Below are positions 11,394 through 25,044 of a stretch of DNA of 64,000 nt, in pieces. Location: the NCBI RefSeq assembly GCF_013466785.1, contig NZ_CP059163.1:1364001-1428000 (forward strand), given 5' to 3'. How positions within the stretch are numbered: the stretch's first letter is position 1; each line of letters begins with the position of its first letter. The DNA comes from Nocardioides marinisabuli (GTDB taxonomy: Bacteria > Actinomycetota > Actinomycetes > Propionibacteriales > Nocardioidaceae). A program made the position numbers and the translations under genes. Under the pieces are notes generated by a model that was not told where the DNA came from, ran no database searches, and saw nothing but the letters and a program-made list of their open reading frames with translations.

Positions 11394-11986
11394 GAGCGGT
11401 CCTCGGTCTCGGTCTCGGGGAGGCTGGTGCGGGGCGAGGGGGCCAGGGACGGGTCGATCCGCAGCTTGGCGAACGCCTTGGACGTCTGGCTCTTGACGGT
11501 GCCGACCGAGCAGCCGAGCACCTGGGCGGTCTGGGCCTCGGTGAGGTCCTCGAAGTAGCGCAGCACCACGACGGCCCGCTGCCGGCGCGGCAGCCGCTCC
11601 ATCGCCGTCCACAGGTCGTGGCGCTGCCCCACCGCCTCGGCCTGGTCGGGGGTGCCGCCCTGCTCGGGCAGCTCGTCGGTGGCGTGCTCGCCGTTCCAGC
11701 GCCGCCGCCACCAGGTGGCGTACGTGGTGACCAGGATCCGGCGCACGTAGGCCTCGTGCTGGTCGATGCGCTCCCACGCGAACCACGCCTTGGCCAGCGC
11801 GGTCTGCAGGAGGTCCTCGGCCAGCGCGTGGTCGTGGGTCAGCAGGTACGCCGTGCGCAGCAGGCCGGCGGAGCGCGCGAGCACGAAGTCGTCGAAGGCG
11901 ACGCTCCGGCTGCTCGCCGGGGAGTGCGGCACGGCTCCTCCTGGTCGGGACGGGCCCGAGCGCGTCCCGGTGGGGGTGGTGGTCAT
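11390..11986 (-). CDS. SigE-family ECF RNA polymerase sigma factor
   Basis: 198 residues with sigma-70 regions 2 and 4. Region 2 is FDDFVLARSAGLLRTAYLL...ALAEDLLQTALAKAW and region 4 is LPRRQRAVVVLRYFEDLTEAQ followed by LGCSVGTVKSQTSKA. This matches the SigE-like ECF group abundant in Nocardioides and Streptomyces. The ATG at 11986 was preferred because the longer frame upstream reads antisense to the sulfatase. It is divergent from the sulfatase pair across about 60 nt and overlaps the downstream membrane-protein gene by ATGA. Confidence 0.88.
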   Translation of the reverse strand: MTTTPTGTRSGPSRPGGAVPHSPASSRSVAFDDFVLARSAGLLRTAYLLTHDHALAEDLLQTALAKAWFAWERIDQHEAYVRRILVTTYATWWRRRWNGEHATDELPEQGGTPDQAEAVGQRHDLWTAMERLPRRQRAVVVLRYFEDLTEAQTAQVLGCSVGTVKSQTSKAFAKLRIDPSLAPSPRTSLPETETEDRS

Positions 11987-12033
11987 GTCCGGGAGGACCA
12001 CCCGAGGATCATGGAAGGTTGCCTCCCGGCGGC

Positions 12034-12039
12034 TACAGT
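12034..12039 (+). promoter_or_regulatory. -10-like TACAGT before sulfatase 1
   Basis: TACAGT lies 8 nt before the GTG at 12048 with no ribosome binding site. It is a candidate leaderless promoter in the short divergent gap with the sigma gene. Confidence 0.35.
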
Positions 12040-12047
12040 CTCGCGCC

Positions 12048-13616
12048 GTGACCGATCCTCTCGTGCCGAGCGCTGCGAGCCGCCGCCGCAGCCCCTGGCC
12101 CGCGGTGGTGCTGGCGCTGCTGCTGGTCGGCATGGTCAGCGCCGCGACCGGCGGGGACCGCTCGGGGCCGCCGGAGGCGCTCACCCCGGTCTCCTCGTCC
12201 ACCGACCACCGGCCCAACATCGTGCTGTTCTCCAGCGACGACCAGCGCCTCGACGAGATGGTCTTCCTGCCGCAGGTCCGCGCGCTCCTCGGCGAGCACG
12301 GGCTGACGATGAGCGAGGCGATCACCCCGCACCCGCTGTGCTGCCCGGCCCGGGCCGAGATCCTCACCGGCCAGATGGCCCAGAACAACGGCGTGCGCAC
12401 CAACTTCCCGCCCCAGGGCGGCTACGCGGCCTTCGACCCGTCGTCGACGATCGGCACCGACCTGACCCGGGCCGGCTACAACACCGCCTTCCTGGGCAAG
12501 CCCCTCAACGGCTACGACGAGGGCGACGGGCGCGACCCGGGCTGGACGATCTTCAACGCCACCAGCCACGGCTACTCCGACTACTACGACTTCACCCAGT
12601 TCGACGAGGACCGCAAGGTCAAGGTCGAGGGCTACTACACCGACTACCTCGCCGAGAAGGCCGTCGAGTACGCCGGCGAGCTCAGCGACATGGACGACCC
12701 CTTCTTCCTGTGGGTCAGCCACTTCGCCCCGCACCCCAGCAAGGGCCGCTCGGGCTGCCACGACGCCAGCTGCAAGAACGCCCCGCCGGCGCTGTCGCCG
12801 TCGTACGAGGCCAGCTCGCGGCTGCTGGGCCGGCTGCCGATGCAGGACGAGGCCGACCGGCTCGCCGACACGATCCTCGACTCCCCCGCCTACCGCGAGC
12901 GCGACCGCTCCGACAAGCCGCACCTGGTGCGCCGCCAGGCGGGCACCTCCGACGCCAAGGTGCGCCGCCTCGTGCGGGCCCGCGCCGGGGCGCTGGCCTC
13001 GCTCGACGACGCCTTCGCCCGGCTGGCCGCCCAGCTGCGCGCCGACGGCGAGCTCGACAACACCTTCGTCGTCTTCGTCACCGACAACGGCTACACGCTC
13101 GGTGAGCACGGCTGGTTCGGCAAGACGCTGCCCTACGAGCAGAACCTGCGGATGCCGATGCTGGTCGCCGGCCCGGACGTCGAGGCCGGCGCCACCAGCG
13201 ACGTGGCCGTCAGCATCGTCGACCTGGCCGCGACCTTCCTCGACATCGCCGGCGCCGACAGCGACCGCCGCCTCGACGGGGTCTCGCTGCTGCCGACCTG
13301 GACCGGACGCTCCACCCGGGCGCTGCACCCGGGCGGGATGCTCATCCAGGGCGGTCCGTTCAAGCCCGAGACCGGCCCCCGGGGCTGGCTCTACCGGGGC
13401 GTGCGCACCGAGCGCTACACCTACGCCCGCCACGTCGACGGGACCGTCGAGCTCTACGACCGCGAGCGCGACCCGCACGAGGTCGCCTCGGTGGCCGGGC
13501 GGGCGTCGTACGCCGCCGTGGAGCGCGAGCTGGCCCGCCGCACGGCCGTGCTGGGCCGCTGCTCGGGGCCGCGCTCGTGCACCCGTGACTTCGGACCGCT
13601 GCCGCAGCCGAGCTGA
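12048..13616 (+). CDS. Type I sulfatase, membrane-anchored or secreted (paralogue 1)
   Basis: 522 residues. A hydrophobic N-terminal segment (about 18-33) can serve as signal or anchor. The mature part begins with RPNIVLFSSDDQ, whose Asp residues bind the metal. The formylglycine motif C98-C-P-A-R102 fits CxPxR, so the first Cys should be oxidised by a formylglycine-generating enzyme, which is not encoded in this window. VTDNGYTLGEHGW and the C-terminal metal/substrate residues are intact. Substrate unknown: glycan, steroid or aryl sulfates are all possible. The GTG start gives the compact signal sequence. The next gene is a close paralogue in the same direction. Confidence 0.88.
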   Translation: MTDPLVPSAASRRRSPWPAVVLALLLVGMVSAATGGDRSGPPEALTPVSSSTDHRPNIVLFSSDDQRLDEMVFLPQVRALLGEHGLTMSEAITPHPLCCPARAEILTGQMAQNNGVRTNFPPQGGYAAFDPSSTIGTDLTRAGYNTAFLGKPLNGYDEGDGRDPGWTIFNATSHGYSDYYDFTQFDEDRKVKVEGYYTDYLAEKAVEYAGELSDMDDPFFLWVSHFAPHPSKGRSGCHDASCKNAPPALSPSYEASSRLLGRLPMQDEADRLADTILDSPAYRERDRSDKPHLVRRQAGTSDAKVRRLVRARAGALASLDDAFARLAAQLRADGELDNTFVVFVTDNGYTLGEHGWFGKTLPYEQNLRMPMLVAGPDVEAGATSDVAVSIVDLAATFLDIAGADSDRRLDGVSLLPTWTGRSTRALHPGGMLIQGGPFKPETGPRGWLYRGVRTERYTYARHVDGTVELYDRERDPHEVASVAGRASYAAVERELARRTAVLGRCSGPRSCTRDFGPLPQPS

Positions 13617-13628
13617 GCCGAGGTCCCC

Positions 13629-15167
13629 GTGAACGGCACGCCCACCCTCTCCGCGCCGCGGCTCCCACGGCCGCTGGTGGCGGCCCTCGTCGCCCTGGTG
13701 GTGCTGATCGGCCTCGCCGCCGTCGTCGAGCTGCGCTCCCAGCAGCGCGCCGAGCGGCCCAACATCGTGCTGATCACCACCGACGACCAGCGCCTCGACG
13801 AGATGCAGTTCCTGCCCGAGACCCAGCGGCTGCTCGGCGGGGCCGGGCTGACCTTCGACAACGCGCTGACCCCGCACCCGCTGTGCTGCCCGGCACGTGC
13901 GGAGCTGATGACCGGCCAGCTGGCGCAGAACAACGGGGTGCGCGGCAACTTCCCGCCCCAGGGCGGCTTCGCGGCGTTCGACTCCAGCCAGCACGTCGGC
14001 ACCTGGCTCAGCGACGCCGGCTACCGCACGGCGTTCGTCGGCAAGATGCTCAACGGCTACGGCAAGAACGACGGGCGCCTGCCCGGCTGGTCGATCTTCA
14101 ACGCCACCAGCCACGGCTTCGCCGACTACTACGACTTCGTGCAGTACGACGAGGACGAGGCGGTGCAGGTCGACGGCTACTACACCGACTACATCGGCGA
14201 GAAGGCCGTCGAGTACGCCGCCGACCTCGCCGACGGTGACGACCCGTTCTTCATGTGGGTCAGCCACTTCGCCCCGCACCCCGCGCGCCAGCGCTCGACC
14301 TGCAAGTCCGAGACCTGCGGCACCGAGCCGCCGCTGCCCTCGCCGCAGCAGCGCAAGCAGCAGGAGCGCACCGGCAAGCTGCCGCACCAGGACCGCGCCG
14401 ACGCGCTGGCCCGCTCGATCATCGAGTCGCCCGCCTTCAACGAGGCCGACGTCTCCGACAAGCAGCGCCTGGTGCGCCGCCAGGAGCGGCTGGCCGAGGG
14501 CAAGGTGGTGCGCAGCGCCCGCGGCCGCGCCGCGGCCCTCGACGCGCTCGACCAGACCATCGCGCCCCTCATCGACCAGCTGCGCGAGTCGGGCGAGCTC
14601 GACAACACCTACATCGTGCTGGTGACCGACAACGGCTTCCAGCTGGGCGAGCACCGCTGGTTCGGCAAGATCCTGCCCTACGAGGAGAACGTCCGGACCC
14701 CGATGCTGGTGCGCGGCCCGGGCATCGAGGCCGGCACCACCACCGACGCGACGGCCACGATCGTCGACCTGGTGCCCACCTTCCTCGACATTGCCGACGC
14801 CACGTCGACCCTCGAGCAGGACGGCCGCTCGATGCTCGACCTGTGGCGCGGCGAGGAGGACGACGACCTGCACCCCGGCGGCGTCCTGCTGCAGGGCGGT
14901 CCCTACAAGCCCGAGACCGGCGAGACGGGCTGGCTCTACCGGGGTGTGCGCACCGATCGCTACACCTGGGTGCGCTACCACGACGGCTTCGTCGAGATGT
15001 ACGACCGCCAGCGCGACCCCGAGCAGCTCACCTCGGTCAGCGGCCGCCCCCGCTACGCCGCCGTCGAGACCGAGCTCGAGCGCCGCGCCGAGCTGCTCTC
15101 CGACTGCGCCGGCCCCGAGGAGTGCAACCAGGACTTCGGCCCGCTCCCCGAGCCGGGCGTGGGCTGA
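13629..15167 (+). CDS. Type I sulfatase, membrane-anchored or secreted (paralogue 2)
   Basis: 512 residues, a tandem paralogue of the preceding sulfatase with 12 nt between them. A clear hydrophobic helix (about 15-34) is followed by RPNIVLITTDDQ. The formylglycine motif is C86-C-P-A-R90, and VTDNGFQLGEHRW is conserved. The two proteins stay alignable to the end (GPLPQPS versus GPLPEPG). Likely a cell-surface or periplasmic-side hydrolase. The last 16 bases of the gene, including the stop region, are repeated three more times just downstream. Confidence 0.88.
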   Translation: MNGTPTLSAPRLPRPLVAALVALVVLIGLAAVVELRSQQRAERPNIVLITTDDQRLDEMQFLPETQRLLGGAGLTFDNALTPHPLCCPARAELMTGQLAQNNGVRGNFPPQGGFAAFDSSQHVGTWLSDAGYRTAFVGKMLNGYGKNDGRLPGWSIFNATSHGFADYYDFVQYDEDEAVQVDGYYTDYIGEKAVEYAADLADGDDPFFMWVSHFAPHPARQRSTCKSETCGTEPPLPSPQQRKQQERTGKLPHQDRADALARSIIESPAFNEADVSDKQRLVRRQERLAEGKVVRSARGRAAALDALDQTIAPLIDQLRESGELDNTYIVLVTDNGFQLGEHRWFGKILPYEENVRTPMLVRGPGIEAGTTTDATATIVDLVPTFLDIADATSTLEQDGRSMLDLWRGEEDDDLHPGGVLLQGGPYKPETGETGWLYRGVRTDRYTWVRYHDGFVEMYDRQRDPEQLTSVSGRPRYAAVETELERRAELLSDCAGPEECNQDFGPLPEPGVG

Positions 15168-15339: not shown

Positions 15340-15352
15340 CGCGCTGTGGGGT

Positions 15353-15810
15353 GAGCAGCGAGGGCCGGCGGCCCGACGGCGTACGACGAGGTCTGCGCGG
15401 TCCTCACCGGGTCTCGGCGACGCGCGTCGCTGGCGCTCCTTGCTGCTCGACCAACGGAGCGGCGTACGGCCCCCGTGTTGAGCAGCGAGGGCCGGCGGCC
15501 CGACGGCGTACGACAAGGTCCGTGCGGTCCTCACGAGGTCTCGGCGACGCGCGTCGCTGGCGCTCCTTGCTGCTCGACCAACGGGGCGGCGCACGGCACC
15601 CGTGGTCGAGCAGCGAGGGCCGGCGGCCCCACGGCGTACGGCGAGGTCCGCGCGGTCCTCACCGGGTCTCGGCGACGCGCGTCGCTGGCGCTCCTTGCTG
15701 CTCGACCAACGGATCGTCGTACGGCGAGGTCCGCGCGGTCCTTGCGGGGTCTCGACGACGCGCGTCGCTGGCGCTCCTTGCTGCTCGACCAACGGGCGGC
15801 GTACGGCGTG
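15353..15810. repeat. Four tandem copies of a ~127-bp Nocardioides-type intergenic repeat
   Basis: Units start at 15353, 15480 and 15608, with a truncated copy from about 15718. Each full unit opens with (GTC)GAGCAGCGAGGGCCGG, contains GGTCTCGGCGACGCGCGTCG, and closes with CTCCTTGCTGCTCGACCAAC. Its ends are therefore imperfect inverted repeats. No coding potential is credible here. Together with the arrays at 15150-15339 it accounts for the whole gap 15168-15826, which holds no gene. Confidence 0.8.
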
Positions 15811-15826
15811 AGCTGGCGACCGCGGG

Positions 15827-16624: not shown

Positions 16625-16652
16625 GCATCCGTCGAGGGGCTCCGCTACGAAC
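16625..16652 (+). promoter_or_regulatory. Probable SigK-type promoter of the molybdopterin oxidoreductase
   Basis: GCATCC at 16625-16630, then 16 nt, then ACGAAC at 16647-16652, with the ATG 7 nt later. Mycobacterial SigK promoters read CCATCC and CCGAAT about 15-17 nt apart. The CGAACAACC block is shared with the promoter at 18313-18339. Confidence 0.5.
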
Positions 16653-16659
16653 AACCGCC

Positions 16660-18249
16660 ATGTCCACACCCACGCCCGACCCATCGTCCGACAGCACCGC
16701 CGACCGCGGCTCCCGGTCCCACCGACTCGGTGTCACCGCGCTGTGGGCAGGCCTGGGCGTGGTCTCCACGCTCCTCGGCATGGCCGCGGCCCACCTGGTC
16801 GCCTCCCTGCTGACCCCGTCGTCGTCGCCCGTGCTGGCGGTCGGCTCGCAGGTCATCGACCTGACCCCCACCCCGATGAAGGAGTGGGCGATCCGCCAGT
16901 TCGGCACCGCCGACAAGGTGATCCTGGTCGGCTCGGTCATCGTCGTCGTGCTGATCCTGGCCGGCGTCGCGGGCGTGCTCGCCCGCCGCCGCCTGGCGTA
17001 CGGCGCCGGCCTGCTGGTCCTGCTCGTCGCGATCGCCGCGGCCGCTGCGCTGAACCAGGGCAGCGTCTCGGAGCTGCTGCCCAGCCTGGTCGCCGCCGTC
17101 GTCGGCGTCGCGTCGCTGTGGTGGCTGCACCGCAAGGCCTCGGCCACCAAGGCCGCCGACCCCGGGCAGCCCCGCGAGGCGGGCACCGGCGCGAGCCGCC
17201 GCGGCGTGCTCATCGCCGCCGGCGCCCTCGCCGCCGCGGCCGCCGTCCTGGGTGGCGCCGGTCGCTACATCACCAGCCTGCGCAGCGGCAACGTCGACAT
17301 CGCGCTGCCCGAGCCGGCCTCGCCGGCCGGCGCCTTCCCCGAGGGCCTCGACGGCCAGGTCAAGGGCATCACCCCGCTGCGCGTGGCCAACGAGGACTTC
17401 TACCGCGTCGACACCCGCCTCGACACCCCCGTGATCGACCAGGACACCTGGACGCTGACCATCGACGGCGACGTCGAGCGCGAGATCACCCTAACCTTCG
17501 ACGACCTGCTCGAGATGGACCTGATCGAGCGCGACATCACCCTGACCTGCGTCTCCAACAGCGTCGGCGGCGAGTTCGTCGGCGGCGCCCGCTGGCTCGG
17601 GGTGCGCCTGACCGACCTGCTCGACATGGCCGGCGTCGGCGACACGGCCGACCAGATCTACACCACCGACTTCGACGGGATGACGATCAGCACCCCGCTC
17701 GACCTGGCCACCGACGGCCGCGACTCCATGATCGCGATCGGCATGAACGGCGAGGCGCTGCCCCGCGCCCACGGCTTCCCGGCCCGGATGATCGTGCCCG
17801 GCCTCTACGGCTTCATCAGCGCGACCAAGTGGATCACCCGCATCACGCTGACGACGTACGCCGAGAAGTCGGCGTACTGGACCGACCGCGACTGGGCCAC
17901 CGACGCCCCGATCAAGGTCTCGACGCGCATCGACACGCCCAACGCCCTCGAGCAGCTGCCCGTCGGCGAGAACATCATCGGCGGTGTCGCCTGGGCCCAG
18001 CAGAAGGGCGGCGTCGACAAGGTGCAGGTGCGCATCGACGGTGGCCCGTGGCAGGACGCCGAGATGGGCCCGAGCGTCAACAACGACTACTGGCGCCAGT
18101 GGTTCTACCGCTGGGACGCCACCGAGGGCGGCCACGCGGTCGCCGCCCGAGCCATCAGCGGCGACGGCACCACCCAGACGCCCGCGCGCGCCCTGCCCTT
18201 CCCGGAGGGCGCCAGCGGCATCCAGGAGCTGCGTGTCACTGCGGGATGA
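16660..18249 (+). CDS. Membrane-anchored molybdopterin-dependent oxidoreductase (sulfite oxidase family)
   Basis: 529 residues. Four hydrophobic helices (about 26-52, 87-108, 113-131, 137-157) and a fifth near 183-202 precede a sulfite-oxidase-fold domain from about 215. Cys297 in TLTCVSNSVGG is the expected molybdenum ligand, and the C-terminal part has the Ig-like dimerisation domain. The family includes sulfite oxidase and the MsrP/YedY methionine sulfoxide reductases. The active site would face outside. It carries a SigK-like promoter and lies beside a SigK-linked fasciclin gene, suggesting extracytoplasmic redox or repair work. Substrate unproven. Confidence 0.85.
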   Translation: MSTPTPDPSSDSTADRGSRSHRLGVTALWAGLGVVSTLLGMAAAHLVASLLTPSSSPVLAVGSQVIDLTPTPMKEWAIRQFGTADKVILVGSVIVVVLILAGVAGVLARRRLAYGAGLLVLLVAIAAAAALNQGSVSELLPSLVAAVVGVASLWWLHRKASATKAADPGQPREAGTGASRRGVLIAAGALAAAAAVLGGAGRYITSLRSGNVDIALPEPASPAGAFPEGLDGQVKGITPLRVANEDFYRVDTRLDTPVIDQDTWTLTIDGDVEREITLTFDDLLEMDLIERDITLTCVSNSVGGEFVGGARWLGVRLTDLLDMAGVGDTADQIYTTDFDGMTISTPLDLATDGRDSMIAIGMNGEALPRAHGFPARMIVPGLYGFISATKWITRITLTTYAEKSAYWTDRDWATDAPIKVSTRIDTPNALEQLPVGENIIGGVAWAQQKGGVDKVQVRIDGGPWQDAEMGPSVNNDYWRQWFYRWDATEGGHAVAARAISGDGTTQTPARALPFPEGASGIQELRVTAG

Positions 18250-18270
18250 CCCCGCCGTGAGCCCGCAGTG
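18237..18270 (+). terminator. Hairpin spanning the molybdoenzyme stop codon
   Basis: A 9-bp perfect inverted repeat, CACTGCGGG at 18237-18245 and CCCGCAGTG at 18262-18270, with a 16-nt loop and no U-tract. It may weakly terminate or stabilise the 3' end. Confidence 0.3.
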
Positions 18271-18312
18271 ACCCAGGCCACACGAAAAACCCGCAGTTCG
18301 TTCCATCCGGCC

Positions 18313-18339
18313 CAATCCGGGCCCCCCGCAGTACCGAAC
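18313..18339 (+). promoter_or_regulatory. Probable SigK promoter of the fasciclin lipoprotein gene
   Basis: CAATCC at 18313-18318, exactly 15 nt, then CCGAAC at 18334-18339. Each hexamer differs by one base from the mycobacterial SigK consensus (CCATCC, CCGAAT). The gene controlled is the counterpart of SigK-driven mpt70/mpt83, which strengthens the call. Confidence 0.65.
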
Positions 18340-18387: not shown

Positions 18388-19038
18388 ATGAAGAACACCA
18401 CCTTCAAGCGCACCGGCGCCCTGGCCGCCACGGCCCTCACCCTCTCGCTCGGCCTCGCGGCCTGCGGCGACGACGCGGACGAGACCAGCACCGCTTCCGA
18501 GGACACCAGCTCGGAGACCACGGACGCCCCCGAGGAGGAGACCGCCGAGGCCTCCGCCAGCGACCAGGTCTTCGGCCCGGCGTGCTCGGCCGTGCCGCAG
18601 GACGGCAAGGGCTCCTTCGACGGCATGGTCCAGGACCCGGTCGCCACCGCCGCCAGCAACAACCCGCTGCTCGGCACCCTGGTCACCGCCGTGGGCGAGG
18701 CCGGCCTCGTCGACACCCTGAACGACGCCGAGGCCCTGACGGTCTTCGCGCCCACCGACGACGCGTTCGGCGCCATCCCGGAGGAGGACCTCAACGCGGT
18801 CCTCGCCGACAAGGAGACCCTCACCGCGATCCTGACCCACCACGTCATCGGCGAGCAGCTCGACCCCGACGCCGTCGTGGGCGAGCAGGACACCCTCAAC
18901 GGTGACACCCTCACCATCAACGGTGACACCGACGGCATGACCGTCGAGAACGGTGACACCCCGGCCAACGTGCTGTGCGGCAACATCCCCACGGCCAACG
19001 CCACGGTGTACGTCGTCGACGCCGTGCTGATGCCCTGA
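18388..19038 (+). CDS. Fasciclin (FAS1) domain lipoprotein, MPT70/MPT83-like
   Basis: 216 residues. Lys/Arg-rich n-region, hydrophobic core and lipobox LAAC (Cys about residue 25), then an acidic Thr/Ser linker, then one FAS1 domain. FAS1 landmarks are TLVTAVGEAGLVDTLN, LTVFAPTDDAF and the late HHVIGEQL region. Family members are surface adhesion or envelope proteins, and in Mycobacterium MPT70/MPT83 are SigK-controlled. The ATG at 18388 gives the intact signal peptide, with an AAAGG element upstream. A SigK-type promoter precedes it and sigK follows 26 nt after its stop. Confidence 0.92.
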   Translation: MKNTTFKRTGALAATALTLSLGLAACGDDADETSTASEDTSSETTDAPEEETAEASASDQVFGPACSAVPQDGKGSFDGMVQDPVATAASNNPLLGTLVTAVGEAGLVDTLNDAEALTVFAPTDDAFGAIPEEDLNAVLADKETLTAILTHHVIGEQLDPDAVVGEQDTLNGDTLTINGDTDGMTVENGDTPANVLCGNIPTANATVYVVDAVLMP

Positions 19039-19064: not shown

Positions 19065-19673
19065 GTGACTGAGCCAAGGCTGACCGTCGCCGGGGACCCC
19101 GAGGGGTCCCCGGCCGGCGGGGCCGCGCCCCCGGACCTGGCAGAACTCCTTCGCTCCTCCGCCAAGGGGGACCAGCAGGCGTTCGCCCAGCTCTACGACG
19201 CGGTCGCCTCCCGGGCCTACGGCCTGGTGCTCCGGGTCGTCCGCGACCCGGCCCAGAGCGAGGAGGTCCTCCAGGAGGCCATGCTCGACGTCTGGCGCCA
19301 GTCGGCGCGGTTCGACGCCGACCGGGGCAGCCCGCTGTCCTGGATGCTCACGATCGTGCACCGCAAGGCCGTCGACCGGGTCCGCTCGGCCGAGGCGTCC
19401 ACGCGGCGCGACACCACGTACCACCAGCACAACCAGCCGGTCGAGCACGACTCGACCGCCGAGGCGGCCCACGCCTCGATGGAGGCCCGCAGGGTCCGCG
19501 ACGCGCTCACCACGCTCACGCCGGTGCAGCGCGAGGCCCTCGAGCTGGCCTACTTCGGCGGCTACACGCACACCGAGGTGGCCACCATGCTCGACCTACC
19601 GGTCGGCACAGCCAAGACACGAATACGCGACGGACTCATCCGCTTGCGAGACACGATGGGAGTAGGCCAATGA
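19065..19673 (+). CDS. sigK: ECF RNA polymerase sigma factor SigK
   Basis: 202 residues. Region 2 (DQQAFAQLYDAV...EEVLQEAMLDVWRQS) and region 4 (LTPVQREALELAYFGGYTHTEV, then LDLPVGTAKTRIRDG) match SigK/ECF19-type factors. The assignment rests on sequence plus context: rskA follows with an ATGA overlap, then the same gene set as downstream of M. tuberculosis sigK (amine oxidase, DUF1365, ufaA1-like methyltransferase, DUF1295). It should direct transcription of the fasciclin and molybdoenzyme genes from the promoters seen at 16625 and 18313. No SigK promoter is visible directly before sigK itself. Confidence 0.92.
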   Translation: MTEPRLTVAGDPEGSPAGGAAPPDLAELLRSSAKGDQQAFAQLYDAVASRAYGLVLRVVRDPAQSEEVLQEAMLDVWRQSARFDADRGSPLSWMLTIVHRKAVDRVRSAEASTRRDTTYHQHNQPVEHDSTAEAAHASMEARRVRDALTTLTPVQREALELAYFGGYTHTEVATMLDLPVGTAKTRIRDGLIRLRDTMGVGQ

Positions 19674-20407
19674 ACGACGTGCACGCGCTGTCAGGCGTCT
19701 ACGCCGTCGACGCCCTCGACGAGTTCGAGCGGGTCCAGTTCGAGCGGCACCTCGCCGAGTGCGCCGAGTGCCGCTTCGAGGTCGACTCGCTGCGCGAGGC
19801 CTCCGGTGTGCTCACCGAGGTCGCCCCGATCGCTCCCCCGCCGGCCCTGCGCGAGCGGCTGCTCGCCGAGGTCGCCACGGTGCGTCCCCTGCCCCCTTTG
19901 GTGCAGGAGGTCTCCCGCCCCCGTGCCCGCCGATTTCCGGTTCTGGTCGCCGCCGCGGCTGCAGTGGTAGCCATGGTCGGCGTCGGTGGCGGCATCGCCG
20001 TCATCCAGCCCTGGGAGGACGACTCCTCGGTGCAGGAGGCCAGCCCCGTGGTGGTGACCCCCAAGGCGGTCACCGAGGTGCTGCAGGCCGAGGACGCCGA
20101 GACCGTCACCCGCACCTTCGAGGACGGCGCCAAGGCGACCGTCACCCGCTCGAAGTCGCTGGGCCAGGCCGTCATCATCACCGAGGGCATGGCCGACCCG
20201 GGCGAGGGCCTGGTCTACGAGCTCTGGCTGCAGCGCGACGGTCGGATGAAGGCCGCGGGCTTCATGCCCAAGGGCCCCGACAACGTCGTGCTGCTCTCCG
20301 GCGACGCCGCCACCGCCGAGGCGGTCGGCATCACCGTGGAGCCCGAGGGCGGGTCCAACACCCCGAACTTCGAGTCGGCCATCGTCATCGGCTTCGAGCA
20401 GGCCTGA
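19670..20407 (+). CDS. rskA: Anti-sigma-K factor RskA
   Basis: 245 residues. The N-terminal cytoplasmic anti-sigma domain starts LSGVYAVDALDEFE and contains HLAECAEC, a zinc-binding-type HxxxCxxC. One transmembrane helix lies near residues 85-105 (FPVLVAAAAAVVAMVGVGGG). The C-terminal extracytoplasmic RskA domain includes GLVYELWLQRDGRMKAAGFMP. It holds SigK inactive until regulated proteolysis, as in mycobacteria. The start overlaps the sigK stop by ATGA, ensuring coupled translation. Confidence 0.93.
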   Translation: MNDVHALSGVYAVDALDEFERVQFERHLAECAECRFEVDSLREASGVLTEVAPIAPPPALRERLLAEVATVRPLPPLVQEVSRPRARRFPVLVAAAAAVVAMVGVGGGIAVIQPWEDDSSVQEASPVVVTPKAVTEVLQAEDAETVTRTFEDGAKATVTRSKSLGQAVIITEGMADPGEGLVYELWLQRDGRMKAAGFMPKGPDNVVLLSGDAATAEAVGITVEPEGGSNTPNFESAIVIGFEQA

Positions 20408-20408
20408 C

Positions 20409-22454
20409 GTGGTCGCACGCACCTCCGCTGCGCCCCGTCGGGTCGCGGTGGTCGGCTCCGGCGTCGCCGGACTGACCGCCGCGTACGTCGCCTCGCGCAC
20501 CGCCCACGTCACCCTCTACGAGGCCGACGACCGGCTCGGCGGGCACGCCGACACCCACACGGTGGGCGAGAAGCGGCCCGACGGCAGCGAGCACGAGCTG
20601 CGCATCGACACCGGCTTCATCGTCCACAACCGCCGCACCTACCCGACCCTGCTGCGCCTGTTCGCCGAGCTCGGCGTGCCCACGCAGCAGTCGGAGATGT
20701 CGATGTCGATCCGCGACGACGACTCCGACCTCGAGTGGGCCGGCGCGCTCGGTCGCCGCGGCGTGGTCCCCTCGCGGGGCCACCTGGCTCGGCCGGCGTA
20801 CCTGCGGATGCTCACCGAGATCCCGCGCTTCCACCGCCAGGCCCGCGCCCTGCTGGCCACCGACAGCCCCCGCGGCACCGACGAGCGCACGTTGCGCGAG
20901 TTCCTCGCCGACGGCGGCTTCAGCGACTACTTCGTGCGCCACTTCATGGAGCCGATGGTGGCCGCGGTCTGGTCGTGCGACCCGGAGGTCTCGCTCGAGT
21001 ACCCCGCGCGCTACCTCTTCAGCTTCCTGCAGCACCACGGCATGCTCAGCATCTTCGGCTCGCCGACCTGGCGCACCGTGAGCGGCGGCTCGCACACCTA
21101 CGTGCAGCGCGTCGGTGCGGCCCTGCCCGACGTGCGCCTGGGCACCAAGGTCACCTCGGTCCTCGAGACGCCCGGTGGCGTCGAGGTCACCGACGGCAAC
21201 GGCGAGACCGCGTCGTACGACGCCGTCGTGCTGGCCACGCACCCCTCGCAGACGCTGGCGATGCTGGCCGAGCCGACGCCGCTGCACCACGAGCTGCTCG
21301 GCGCGATGCCCTACTCGCACAACACCGCGCTGCTGCACACCGACACCTCGCTGCTGCCGCGGCTGCGCAACACCTGGGCGTCGTGGAACTTCCTGCGCCC
21401 CTCCGCGGCCCAGGAGCGCCCCGACGGCGCCGAGGGCGTCGTGGTCACCTACGACCTGACCCGCCTGCAGCGCCTCGACACCGACACCCACTACCTGGTC
21501 ACCCTCGGCGGCGAGCACCTCGTCGACCCGGCGAGCGTGATCGACCGGATGGAGTACGAGCACCCGCTCTACACCCCCGAGTCCGTCGCCGCCCAGGCCC
21601 GCCTCGGCGAGCTCGACACCGACCGGGTGGCGCTGGCCGGCGCCTACCACGGGTGGGGCTTCCACGAGGACGGCGCGCGCTCCGGCCTGCGCGCGGTCGA
21701 GCGGCTGGGGCTGACCTGGCCCGAGCGCCCGACCGCGGCCGACGTCGAGGCCGGCGTCGTCTACGACACCACCATCCGCCACCAGCGCCGTACGCCGTGG
21801 AAGCGCGCCTTCACGCACCGCTCGCACACCTGGCTCGTCGACCTCGACGACCTGCCCGACCACAAGTCGACGTCGTGGCTGCGCGGCTCCTTCGAGGCCC
21901 GCGACCACCTGGGCTCCCCCGAGCGCACCATCCGCGAGAACGTCGAGCACTTCCTCGGCCTCCAGGGCGTGCGGCTCGACCCCGACACCCGGGTGCTGAT
22001 GGCCGCGCAGCCGCGCGCCTTCGGCTACTGCTTCAACCCGATCACCGTCTTCTGGGCGCTGGCGCCCGACGGCGGCGTCGAGGCGTGCGTCGTCGAGGTG
22101 CACAACACCTACGGCGACCGGCACGCCTACCTCGTCCGGCCCGACGAGCAGGGCCGCGCCCGCACCGACAAGGCCATGTACGTCTCCCCGTTCCACGGCA
22201 CCGACGGGCACTACGAGCTGGCCGTCCCGGTGCCCGGGGAGCGGCTCGACATCGCCGTCACCCTGCACTCCGACGGCGACGCACGGTTCAGTGCGTCGCT
22301 GACGGGGAACAGGAGCGGGACCAGTTCCCTGCGCGCCGCCCCGGCCGCCCTGCGAGGATCCGTGCTGATCCGTCTGCACGGCGTGTGGCTGTGGCTGCGC
22401 AGGCTCCCGATCCGACAGCGACCCGCGCACCACCAGGAAGGCGTCTCGCGATGA
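20409..22454 (+). CDS. FAD-dependent amine-oxidase-like protein fused to DUF1365
   Basis: 681 residues in two parts. Residues 1 to about 430 form a FAD oxidoreductase with Rossmann motif VVGSGVAGLTAAY and LYEADDRLGGHADTH. Residues from about 445 to the end form DUF1365 (VYDTTIRHQRRTPWKRAF, FGYCFNPITVFWA, VHNTYGDRHAY). In M. tuberculosis these are the separate genes Rv0449c and Rv0448c, so this is a gene fusion. Its neighbours are fatty-acid methyltransferases, so a role in oxidising or desaturating modified acyl chains is inferred. The GTG starts one base after the rskA stop and the gene ends in an ATGA overlap with the next. Confidence 0.9.
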   Translation: MVARTSAAPRRVAVVGSGVAGLTAAYVASRTAHVTLYEADDRLGGHADTHTVGEKRPDGSEHELRIDTGFIVHNRRTYPTLLRLFAELGVPTQQSEMSMSIRDDDSDLEWAGALGRRGVVPSRGHLARPAYLRMLTEIPRFHRQARALLATDSPRGTDERTLREFLADGGFSDYFVRHFMEPMVAAVWSCDPEVSLEYPARYLFSFLQHHGMLSIFGSPTWRTVSGGSHTYVQRVGAALPDVRLGTKVTSVLETPGGVEVTDGNGETASYDAVVLATHPSQTLAMLAEPTPLHHELLGAMPYSHNTALLHTDTSLLPRLRNTWASWNFLRPSAAQERPDGAEGVVVTYDLTRLQRLDTDTHYLVTLGGEHLVDPASVIDRMEYEHPLYTPESVAAQARLGELDTDRVALAGAYHGWGFHEDGARSGLRAVERLGLTWPERPTAADVEAGVVYDTTIRHQRRTPWKRAFTHRSHTWLVDLDDLPDHKSTSWLRGSFEARDHLGSPERTIRENVEHFLGLQGVRLDPDTRVLMAAQPRAFGYCFNPITVFWALAPDGGVEACVVEVHNTYGDRHAYLVRPDEQGRARTDKAMYVSPFHGTDGHYELAVPVPGERLDIAVTLHSDGDARFSASLTGNRSGTSSLRAAPAALRGSVLIRLHGVWLWLRRLPIRQRPAHHQEGVSR

Positions 22455-23725
22455 CCATGACCCCGTCCCGACCCACCAGCCCGCCGCAGGCGGACCGCTG
22501 GCCCGGCCTCGACGTCGTCCCCGGCGGACCCCGCGCCCGGGTCTCCGCGGCCGTGGCCCGCAGGCTCTTCGTCGCCGCGGTCAGCCGCCTCGACGTGACG
22601 GTGCACCTCGACCTGCCCGAGGGCCGGCGCACCATCGGTCGCGGGGGCCCCGAGATGACTGTGCACCGCCCCGACGAGCTCTGGGCCCGGGTGGGCCGCC
22701 ACCAGCTCATCGGCTTCGGCGAGGCCTACCTGACCGGCGCCTGGGACGCCCCCGACCTGGGCGGCTTCCTGACGGTGCTGGCGGCTGAGATCCAGGACCT
22801 GGTGCCGCAGAACCTCCAGAAGGCCCGGGCCCTGATCGTCAAGCGCCCGCCGAGCTGGATGCATTCGAGCAAGAAGAACAGCCAGGCCAACATCGCGCAC
22901 CACTACGACCTGTCCAACGACCTGTTCGAGCTGTTCCTGGACCCGACCATGAGCTACTCCTCGGCGCTCTTCGAGGGCAGCCCGGCCGCCGCGCGGGCCG
23001 AGGACCTCGAGGCGGCCCAGGCCAACAAGATCGAGCGCCTGCTCGACCGGGCCAAGGTCGGCGAGGGCTCACGGGTCCTCGAGATCGGCTCCGGCTGGGG
23101 CGAGCTGGCCATCCGCGCCGCGCGCCGCGGCGCCACGGTGCGCACCATCACGCTCTCGGTCGAGCAGCAGCACCTGGCGCAGGCCCGGGTCGAGGCGGCC
23201 GGCTTCAGCGACCGCGTCGACGTGGAGATCTGCGACTACCGCGACGTCACCGGCGAGTTCGACGCCGTGGTCTCGGTCGAGATGATCGAGGCGGTCGGCC
23301 ACGACTACTGGGGCGAGTACTTCCGCACCATCGACTCGGTGCTGGCCCCCGGCGGCGTGGTGGCGATCCAGGCGATCACGATGCCCCACGACCGGATGCT
23401 GGCCACCCGCAACACCTACACGTGGATCCACAAGTACATCTTCCCCGGCGGGCTGCTGCCCTCGGTGTCGGTCATCGAGCAGATCACCCACGAGCAGACC
23501 TCGCTGCGCCTGGTCGAGCGCCAGGCCTTCGGGCAGCACTACGCCGCGACCCTGCGGCTGTGGGACGACGCCTTCCTCGGCGCGCCCGAGCAGGTCGCCG
23601 ACCTGGGCTTCGACGAGACGTTCGTGCGGATGTGGCACTTCTACCTCGAGTACTCCCGCGCCGGCTTCGCCTCGGGCTACATCGACGTCAACCAGCTGGT
23701 GCTCACGCGCCCGGAGGACTCATGA
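22451..23725 (+). CDS. Cyclopropane-fatty-acid-synthase-like SAM methyltransferase 1 (UfaA1-like)
   Basis: 424 residues. HHYDLSNDLFELFL and the SAM motif VLEIGSGWGELAIRAA are typical of the CFAS/mycolic methyltransferase family, as is the later YTWIHKYIFPGGLLPS. Two deviations from E. coli Cfa are visible. The Cys of YSCAY is Ser171 (MSYSSALF), and EHVG is EAVG. Both suggest a different methylation outcome, for example a methylene or methyl branch instead of a ring, as proposed for the UfaA1 group. Overlaps both neighbours by ATGA. Confidence 0.88.
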   Translation: MTMTPSRPTSPPQADRWPGLDVVPGGPRARVSAAVARRLFVAAVSRLDVTVHLDLPEGRRTIGRGGPEMTVHRPDELWARVGRHQLIGFGEAYLTGAWDAPDLGGFLTVLAAEIQDLVPQNLQKARALIVKRPPSWMHSSKKNSQANIAHHYDLSNDLFELFLDPTMSYSSALFEGSPAAARAEDLEAAQANKIERLLDRAKVGEGSRVLEIGSGWGELAIRAARRGATVRTITLSVEQQHLAQARVEAAGFSDRVDVEICDYRDVTGEFDAVVSVEMIEAVGHDYWGEYFRTIDSVLAPGGVVAIQAITMPHDRMLATRNTYTWIHKYIFPGGLLPSVSVIEQITHEQTSLRLVERQAFGQHYAATLRLWDDAFLGAPEQVADLGFDETFVRMWHFYLEYSRAGFASGYIDVNQLVLTRPEDS

Positions 23726-25044
23726 CCAGCGCCACCGTCCACTCCATCGGCCCCGCGGTCGACCAGCAGGGGGTCGCGCAGCGGCTGGCCCTCGCGCTGG
23801 AGCCGTTCCTGCGCGGGCCCCTGCCGGTGCGGCTGGTCGCGTGGGACGGCTCGGCCACCGGCCCGGCCGACGGGTCGGTCCCGACCGTCGAGCTGCGCAC
23901 CCCCGACGCCGTACGACGCCTGCTGTGGCACCCGGGCGAGCTCGGGGCCGCGCAGGCCTACGTCACCGGTGAGCTCGACGTGCCCGAGGTCGACGGCTGG
24001 GACCTCGACTCGGCGCTGACCCACGCCTTCGCGGTGGCCCGCGAGCGGGGGCTCTCGGGCGTGCGCCCGACGCCGCGCGCGCTGGTCGAGGCGGTGCGCA
24101 CCGCCGCCGGGCTGGGCCTGCTGGGCCGGCCGCCGGCCAACCCGGCCTCCCAGGCCAAGGTGCGCGGTCGCCTGCACTCCAAGGGCCGCGACCGCTCCGC
24201 GATCTCGTTCCACTACGACCTGTCCAACGAGTTCTACTCGATGGTCCTCGAGCCGCAGATGGCCTACTCGTGCGGCTACCACTCCTCCCCGGAGCAGTCC
24301 CTCGAGGACGCCCAGCGCGCCAAGCTCGACCTCGTGTGCACCAAGCTCGGCCTCGAGCCGGGCATGCGGATGCTCGACGTCGGCTGCGGCTGGGGCTCGC
24401 TGTCGCTGCACGCCGCCGAGCACTTCGGCGCCCAGGTGACCGGCGTGACGATCGCTGCGGAGCAGAAGAGGTTCATCGACGCCCGCATCGCCGAGCGCGG
24501 GCTGGGCGACCGGGTCGAGATCCGGTTGCAGGACTACCGCGACGCGGTGCCGGCCCCCGGCCGGGAGTACGACGCGGTCGGCTCGCTCGAGATGGGCGAG
24601 CACGTCGGCCAGGGCAACTACCCGACGTACGCCAGGGTGCTGCACGACTCGGTCCGCCCCGGTGGGCGGGTCCTGGTGCAGCAGATGTCGCGCGCGGGCA
24701 AGTGGCCCGGCGGCGGGCCCTTCATCGAGAGCTTCATCGCGCCCGACATGCACATGCGCCCGGTCGGCGAGACCGTCGGGCTGCTCGAGGCCGGTGGCCT
24801 CGAGGTGCGTGACGTGCACGCGCTGCGCGAGCACTACGTGCTGACCGTCGCGGGCTGGCTGGAGCGCTTCGAGGCGAACGTCGAGCGGCTCACCGAGCTC
24901 GTCGGCGAGGAGGTCGTGCGCGTGTGGCGGCTCTACCTCGTCGGGGGCGCGATGGCCTTCCGCGACGGCCGGATGGGCGTCGACCAGATCCTGATGATCC
25001 GGCCGAACGGCCCCCACACCCTGCCGGCTGTACGAGACTGGTGA
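23722..25044 (+). CDS. cfa: Cyclopropane-fatty-acid-synthase-like SAM methyltransferase 2
   Basis: 440 residues. FHYDLSNEFYSMVLE, then MAYSCGYH with Cys184 at the E. coli Cfa Cys139 position, SAM motif MLDVGCGWGSLSLHAAE, and a preserved EHVG. The C-terminus is FRDGRMGVDQILM. It therefore keeps more classical cyclopropane synthase residues than the preceding gene, and the two are not simple duplicates. Likely uses S-adenosylmethionine to modify unsaturated acyl chains of membrane phospholipids. Overlaps the preceding gene by ATGA and is one base from the next. Confidence 0.88.
   Translation: MTSATVHSIGPAVDQQGVAQRLALALEPFLRGPLPVRLVAWDGSATGPADGSVPTVELRTPDAVRRLLWHPGELGAAQAYVTGELDVPEVDGWDLDSALTHAFAVARERGLSGVRPTPRALVEAVRTAAGLGLLGRPPANPASQAKVRGRLHSKGRDRSAISFHYDLSNEFYSMVLEPQMAYSCGYHSSPEQSLEDAQRAKLDLVCTKLGLEPGMRMLDVGCGWGSLSLHAAEHFGAQVTGVTIAAEQKRFIDARIAERGLGDRVEIRLQDYRDAVPAPGREYDAVGSLEMGEHVGQGNYPTYARVLHDSVRPGGRVLVQQMSRAGKWPGGGPFIESFIAPDMHMRPVGETVGLLEAGGLEVRDVHALREHYVLTVAGWLERFEANVERLTELVGEEVVRVWRLYLVGGAMAFRDGRMGVDQILMIRPNGPHTLPAVRDW

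Follow-up and report, generated by a model that had tools for sequence, protein, structure and literature searches.

The window analyzed here comprises 64,000 nucleotides of Nocardioides marinisabuli DNA. It contains a gene for a membrane molybdoenzyme followed by a cassette of fasciclin, sigK and rskA genes, with a promoter-like site before the molybdoenzyme gene and another before the fasciclin gene. The features of this locus are as follows.

16625-16652, plus strand: candidate SigK-type promoter of the molybdoenzyme gene (GCATCC at 16625-16630, 16 nt, ACGAAC at 16647-16652); the motif is kept in orthologs
16660-18249, plus strand: membrane molybdoenzyme, 529 aa (PF00174, 6e-42; hydropathy; alignment)
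18313-18339, plus strand: candidate SigK-type promoter of the fasciclin-sigK-rskA operon (CAATCC at 18313-18318, 15 nt, CCGAAC at 18334-18339); conserved in orthologs
18388-19038, plus strand: fasciclin (FAS1) lipoprotein, 216 aa (PF02469, 3e-28)
19065-19673, plus strand: sigK, ECF sigma factor, 202 aa, no cysteine (NF007228, 1.6e-77, over cut-off)
19670-20407, plus strand: rskA, anti-sigma factor (HxxxCxxC motif of zinc type; full-length RskA_C domain, 1e-21)
20409-22454, plus strand: fusion of a flavin amine-oxidase-like domain and DUF1365 (Rv0449c/Rv0448c-like), beginning 1 nt past rskA
22442-23725, plus strand: CMAS-family fatty-acid methyltransferase 1 (UfaA1-like), start approximate
23716-25044, plus strand: CMAS-family fatty-acid methyltransferase 2, start approximate

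Upstream of this locus, two adjacent and similar sulfatase-like genes were seen at 11766-15167, the second of which matches Pfam Sulfatase (6e-43). Four near-repeats of about 126 nt were also seen at 15352-15815, flanked by the genes for a sulfatase-family protein and an enoyl-CoA hydratase. Identity to the first copy is 94% for the second, 90% for the third and 66% for the fourth.

The original prediction placed sigK and rskA directly after the fasciclin gene, and both identities hold. The sigK product scored 259.5 with NF007228 (cut-off 226), and the product of the adjoining rskA scored 77.9 with RskA_C (cut-off 29.4). Only one protein of the N. marinisabuli genome was over the SigK family cut-off. 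From the fasciclin gene through sigK and rskA to the fusion gene, the junctions measure 26 nt, a 4-nt overlap and 1 nt. This tight spacing suggests a single transcript from the fasciclin promoter, in which case SigK would be autoregulated. The fusion gene probably shares a transcript with rskA. The downstream layout of fusion and CMAS genes matches the mycobacterial Rv0449c-Rv0444c locus, in which Rv0449c-Rv0447c are presumably the equivalents of the genes found here.

The molybdoenzyme consists of four hydrophobic segments, a twin-arginine (R180 R181), a fifth segment and a sulfite-oxidase-fold Mo domain with Cys297. R180, R181 and Cys297 are invariant in an alignment of 62 sequences, and the topology of about five membrane segments is drawn from hydropathy. 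This architecture resembles that of the dual Sec-Tat Mo proteins typified by Sco3746, with five membrane segments, a twin-arginine before the fifth and a C-terminal MoCo domain. Assembly of Sco3746 by Sec and Tat together was shown with reporter fusions (PMC5449189, eLife 2017). In contrast to the Sco3746 homologs, the histidines of TMD2-4 proposed to coordinate two b hemes are not conserved in the molybdoenzyme group, where the only partly conserved membrane histidine in the 62-sequence alignment is H45 of the first segment (61%).

Both promoter-like sites were present exactly as first described when read from the letters (GCATCC-N16-ACGAAC and CAATCC-N15-CCGAAC). They conform to the SigK promoter type, with [C/A]ATCC and CGAA elements spaced by 15-17 nt; the mycobacterial SigK consensus, as quoted in the original prediction, is CCATCC with CCGAAT. 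AACC directly follows the -10 element at both sites. In a pattern search of the window, these were the only motif sites located before genes, and a third match, on the minus strand at 23633, lies within a coding region. A second CCATCC at 18304, upstream of the fasciclin gene, was dropped because its distance of 24 nt to the -10 element is too long. The distance from site to start codon differs between the two genes. The sequence AACCGCC fills the 7 nt between ACGAAC and the molybdoenzyme ATG at 16660, whereas 48 nt separate the fasciclin -10 element from its ATG at 18388, with GAAAGG as the ribosome site.

Conservation of the motif was assessed in 65 loci carrying a relative of the molybdoenzyme, using the pattern ATCC-N14-17-CGAA near the aligned start. 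The motif was found in 43 of the 65 loci, against rates of 3.6% in random windows and 0.8% in shuffled upstream regions; the loci share descent, so binomial probabilities, which treat them as independent, are overstated and give a direction rather than exact odds. Four further loci (L028, L033, L039 and L056) carry the motif just outside the tested stretch. For a few of the 22 orthologs lacking it in that stretch, the aligned start was too far downstream. Among the adjacent fasciclin orthologs, 34 of 46 have the motif as well. Molybdoenzyme loci from the order of Nocardia, sampled separately, contained it in half of the cases (15/30). In both sets of molybdoenzyme loci the spacers have diverged.

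The position of the motif relative to the start codon was mostly fixed. The gap from the -10 pentamer CGAAN to an in-frame start codon is exactly 7 nt in 33 of 46 motif-bearing loci, against a background of 0.8%, and other spacings included 8 nt in two loci and 5 nt in one. Each of the 15 motif-bearing loci from the order of Nocardia displayed the exact 7-nt spacing (background 0.8%). Transcription from ECF-type promoters usually begins about 7 nt past the -10 element, and a message with a 7-nt gap between -10 element and start codon should therefore begin at the start codon, as a leaderless mRNA. For N. marinisabuli, this spacing predicts a leaderless molybdoenzyme mRNA whose transcription start coincides with the A of the ATG or adjoins it. 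The fasciclin genes instead mostly have leaders, some 30-60 nt long and carrying a ribosome site of the GAAAGG type. Judging from these distances, not every molybdoenzyme gene would be leaderless: in most Microbacteriaceae about 40 nt lie between the motif and the start of the gene, and a leaderless message there appears to be the exception. Leaderless transcripts are common in actinobacteria, making up about a quarter in mycobacteria (PMC6448022). With the fixed 7-nt spacing, several actinobacterial families would provide a sharp example of leaderless transcription maintained at one promoter, in contrast to a neighboring promoter that would be read by the same sigma factor and retains its leader.

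The motif is retained where the molybdoenzyme gene is unlinked from sigK. Fifteen genomes were picked for a molybdoenzyme gene that lies away from sigK or is in some other way atypical; a SigK over the cut-off was found in 13, and in the two without one, Ruania (L060) and Saccharothrix (L067), the motif is also absent. Several Microbacteriaceae, in which sigK lies far from the molybdoenzyme gene, have sites in front of the fasciclin gene at the sigK locus. Among the Microbacteriaceae-type sigK loci (L119-L125), several have a fasciclin gene divergent from sigK, with motif sites close to these genes on both strands. In the order of Nocardia the link is weak, with SigK in 13/15 motif-bearing and 8/15 motif-free genomes (Fisher p = 0.054); two motif-bearing genomes in this order contain no SigK within the E-value limit. 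A membrane molybdoenzyme paralog of the same architecture in the N. marinisabuli genome (C1:2279056, L203) has no motif site. Taken over all loci, these comparisons make it quite probable that SigK controls both the molybdoenzyme and the fasciclin genes. Shared control, as originally predicted, thus received strong comparative support. The accompanying proposal of functional coupling between the two proteins is best kept as a conjecture, as the genes can sit apart (Microbacteriaceae) and the sequence gives no substrate or partner.

Two other explanations of the molybdoenzyme site were considered. In GC-rich DNA, an ordinary promoter might match ATCC and CGAA by coincidence, and the genome-wide counts would allow this. 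ATCC-N14-18-CGAACAA has 3 matches in the 4.17-Mb genome, where a zero-order model expects about 1.5, and the stricter ATCCG-N15/16-CGAAY has 10 matches versus 17 expected. Raw counts were rejected as evidence because they are not above zero-order expectation, despite 0 matches to the reversed form of the first pattern. However, coincidence is very improbable, since the motif recurs in several actinobacterial families at a fixed 7 nt from the start codon although its spacers have diverged. It is position and conservation in the aligned loci, not count, that put the molybdoenzyme motif beyond chance. The other explanation, that a different ECF factor of similar specificity reads the molybdoenzyme promoter while SigK reads the fasciclin site only, is less easily dismissed and yet unlikely. 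Such factors are numerous in each genome (42 candidates on first look), and the motif-bearing genomes in the order of Nocardia that have no SigK within the E-value limit would suit a second factor. A second factor would not be expected from the sites themselves, whose -35 and -10 elements are alike in a given locus and have changed in step between some loci; L022 and L024-L026, for instance, have AAATCC in both places. The genes are also adjacent in most loci, and unlinked copies co-occur with sigK. These observations favor SigK as the factor acting at both promoters.

The function of the molybdoenzyme can be narrowed less closely. The closest family models and solved relatives are the SoxC/SorA and SorAB sulfite dehydrogenases, and the enzyme may possibly be no repair reductase but a sulfite dehydrogenase serving in sulfite detoxification, which would leave the regulation unchanged. 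However, its scores are far under the curated cut-offs for SoxC/SorA (100.7 vs 420; 96.8 vs 600), the score for SorT is likewise far below the family cut-off, and no cytochrome partner gene is adjacent. The NCBIfam MsrP cut-off was not reached either (51.7 vs 207). The enzyme shares with MsrP (YedY)/MsrQ the sulfite-oxidase fold, predicted Tat export and a predicted location on the envelope side, but MsrP and MsrQ are separate subunits. The preferred, though tentative, guess is that it works on oxidized sulfur at the outer face of the membrane, for example by repairing oxidized methionine residues or the sulfoxides of lipids and lipoproteins.

The nearest known system is the SigK-RskA regulon of M. 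tuberculosis (mpt70, mpt83 and Rv0449c-Rv0444c), which likewise has a SigK/RskA pair, a fasciclin target, similar sites and FAD/DUF1365/CMAS genes downstream. In contrast to that regulon, the cassette here is headed by a molybdoenzyme gene with its own SigK-type site, predicted to be mostly leaderless, and further sites lie elsewhere in the genome at the genes of two lipoproteins of predicted HtaA fold and at a SigB-like gene. S. coelicolor SigK (SCO6520) was rejected as a source of regulon data because it is an unrelated SigB-type factor. Unlike the redox-sensitive SigK of M. tuberculosis, SigK in N. marinisabuli is cysteine-free, though its RskA is full length. Of 43 aligned SigK sequences, counting that of the window, 32 are without cysteine in the core. 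Cys-less SigK is common to nearly all Nocardioides and Janibacter orthologs examined, and a cysteine pair is present in SigK of Streptomyces and Phytoactinopolyspora (window SigK positions 147 and 197). The Cys133/Cys183 pair of SigK is shared by 94% of ECF18 and 56% of ECF19, and a natural Cys-less SigK has been reported (PMC7509140). The pair is therefore typical rather than defining, and SigK (ECF18/19) membership is not excluded for a protein that lacks it but matches the SigK family and has an adjacent RskA.

The original prediction raised the question of whether further motif sites cluster before envelope redox genes. The genome-wide search, made by sequence pattern, did yield two secreted lipoproteins and a sigma-factor gene, but no general envelope redox set. 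Five of the ten strict sites have supporting context. Two of the strict sites precede tandem paralogous lipoproteins (C1:2715834 and 2716619, L078) with no match to a Pfam family. Within the genus, this lipoprotein family was sampled at 16 loci, both tandem copies counted, and all but L154 have the motif upstream (15 of 16). An AlphaFold2 model of the lipoprotein (pLDDT 75) gave the HtaA C-terminal domain as its best Foldseek match (E 9e-6), and HtaB domains were also found. The model predicts an HtaA-like (heme-binding) fold for these lipoproteins, and the conserved motif makes them probable SigK targets. The predicted fold is like that of corynebacterial HtaA/HtaB, yet identity is 12%, and heme binding here is putative.

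Another site, CCATCC-N15-CCGAAC at C1:4017306 (L004), lies about 180 nt upstream of the gene of a group-2 sigma factor similar to SigB. Of 30 relatives, 12 retain a site no more than 600 nt away, versus about 3.5% per window, which suggests, with lower confidence, a cascade from SigK to the SigB-like factor. At C1:1170014-1170038 on the minus strand (L074), AAATCC...ACGAAC lies about 99 nt before a gene for a xanthine-oxidase-family Mo subunit with a Tat-like start; this site could be a further target or a chance match. Four more sites are likely to be chance matches: L073, which falls within a gene; L077; L080, which precedes a CbiM-like gene; and L081, which is intergenic. Shared SigK control is very probably genuine and looks wider than originally predicted, and more specific through the leaderless spacing.

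A working model can be proposed from these data. RskA would release SigK, and SigK-RNA polymerase would then transcribe two separate units. One would be the fasciclin-sigK-rskA-flavoprotein/DUF1365-CMAS-CMAS operon, amplifying SigK, and the other the upstream molybdoenzyme gene, as a separate leaderless mRNA beginning at its start codon. The molybdoenzyme would be a five-helix protein with its Mo domain exported in folded form by Tat, acting on the outer face of the membrane according to the predicted topology. Under the stress that releases SigK, the enzyme may reduce or oxidize sulfur compounds, with both substrate and stress being guesses. The same SigK probably also drives the two HtaA-fold lipoproteins and the SigB-like sigma factor.

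The original prediction regarded the control of a molybdoenzyme by SigK as apparently new, and this may hold. The fasciclin-sigK-rskA portion is already known: PMC7509140, citing Veyrier 2008, describes an mpt83-sigK-rskA cassette with a SigK site that is said to reach Yersinia. A molybdoenzyme is not mentioned there, and no report joining SigK with one was found in the literature searched, a set that lacked the original regulon study (Veyrier 2008). One speculative reading gives SigK a broader role: in most actinobacteria it would command an envelope redox response as its master switch, and the mycobacterial antigen regulon would be what is left of that response after reduction. Under this reading SigK would control lipid-modifying enzymes, fasciclin, lipoproteins of the HtaA-like heme type and a SigB-like factor as second tier, besides a molybdoenzyme that is translated from a leaderless mRNA and exported by Tat. 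For mycobacterial SigK, whose signal PMC7509140 describes as unknown, a conserved target enzyme with chemistry that can be read would offer a handle, since its substrate may point to that signal and to the role of the regulon.
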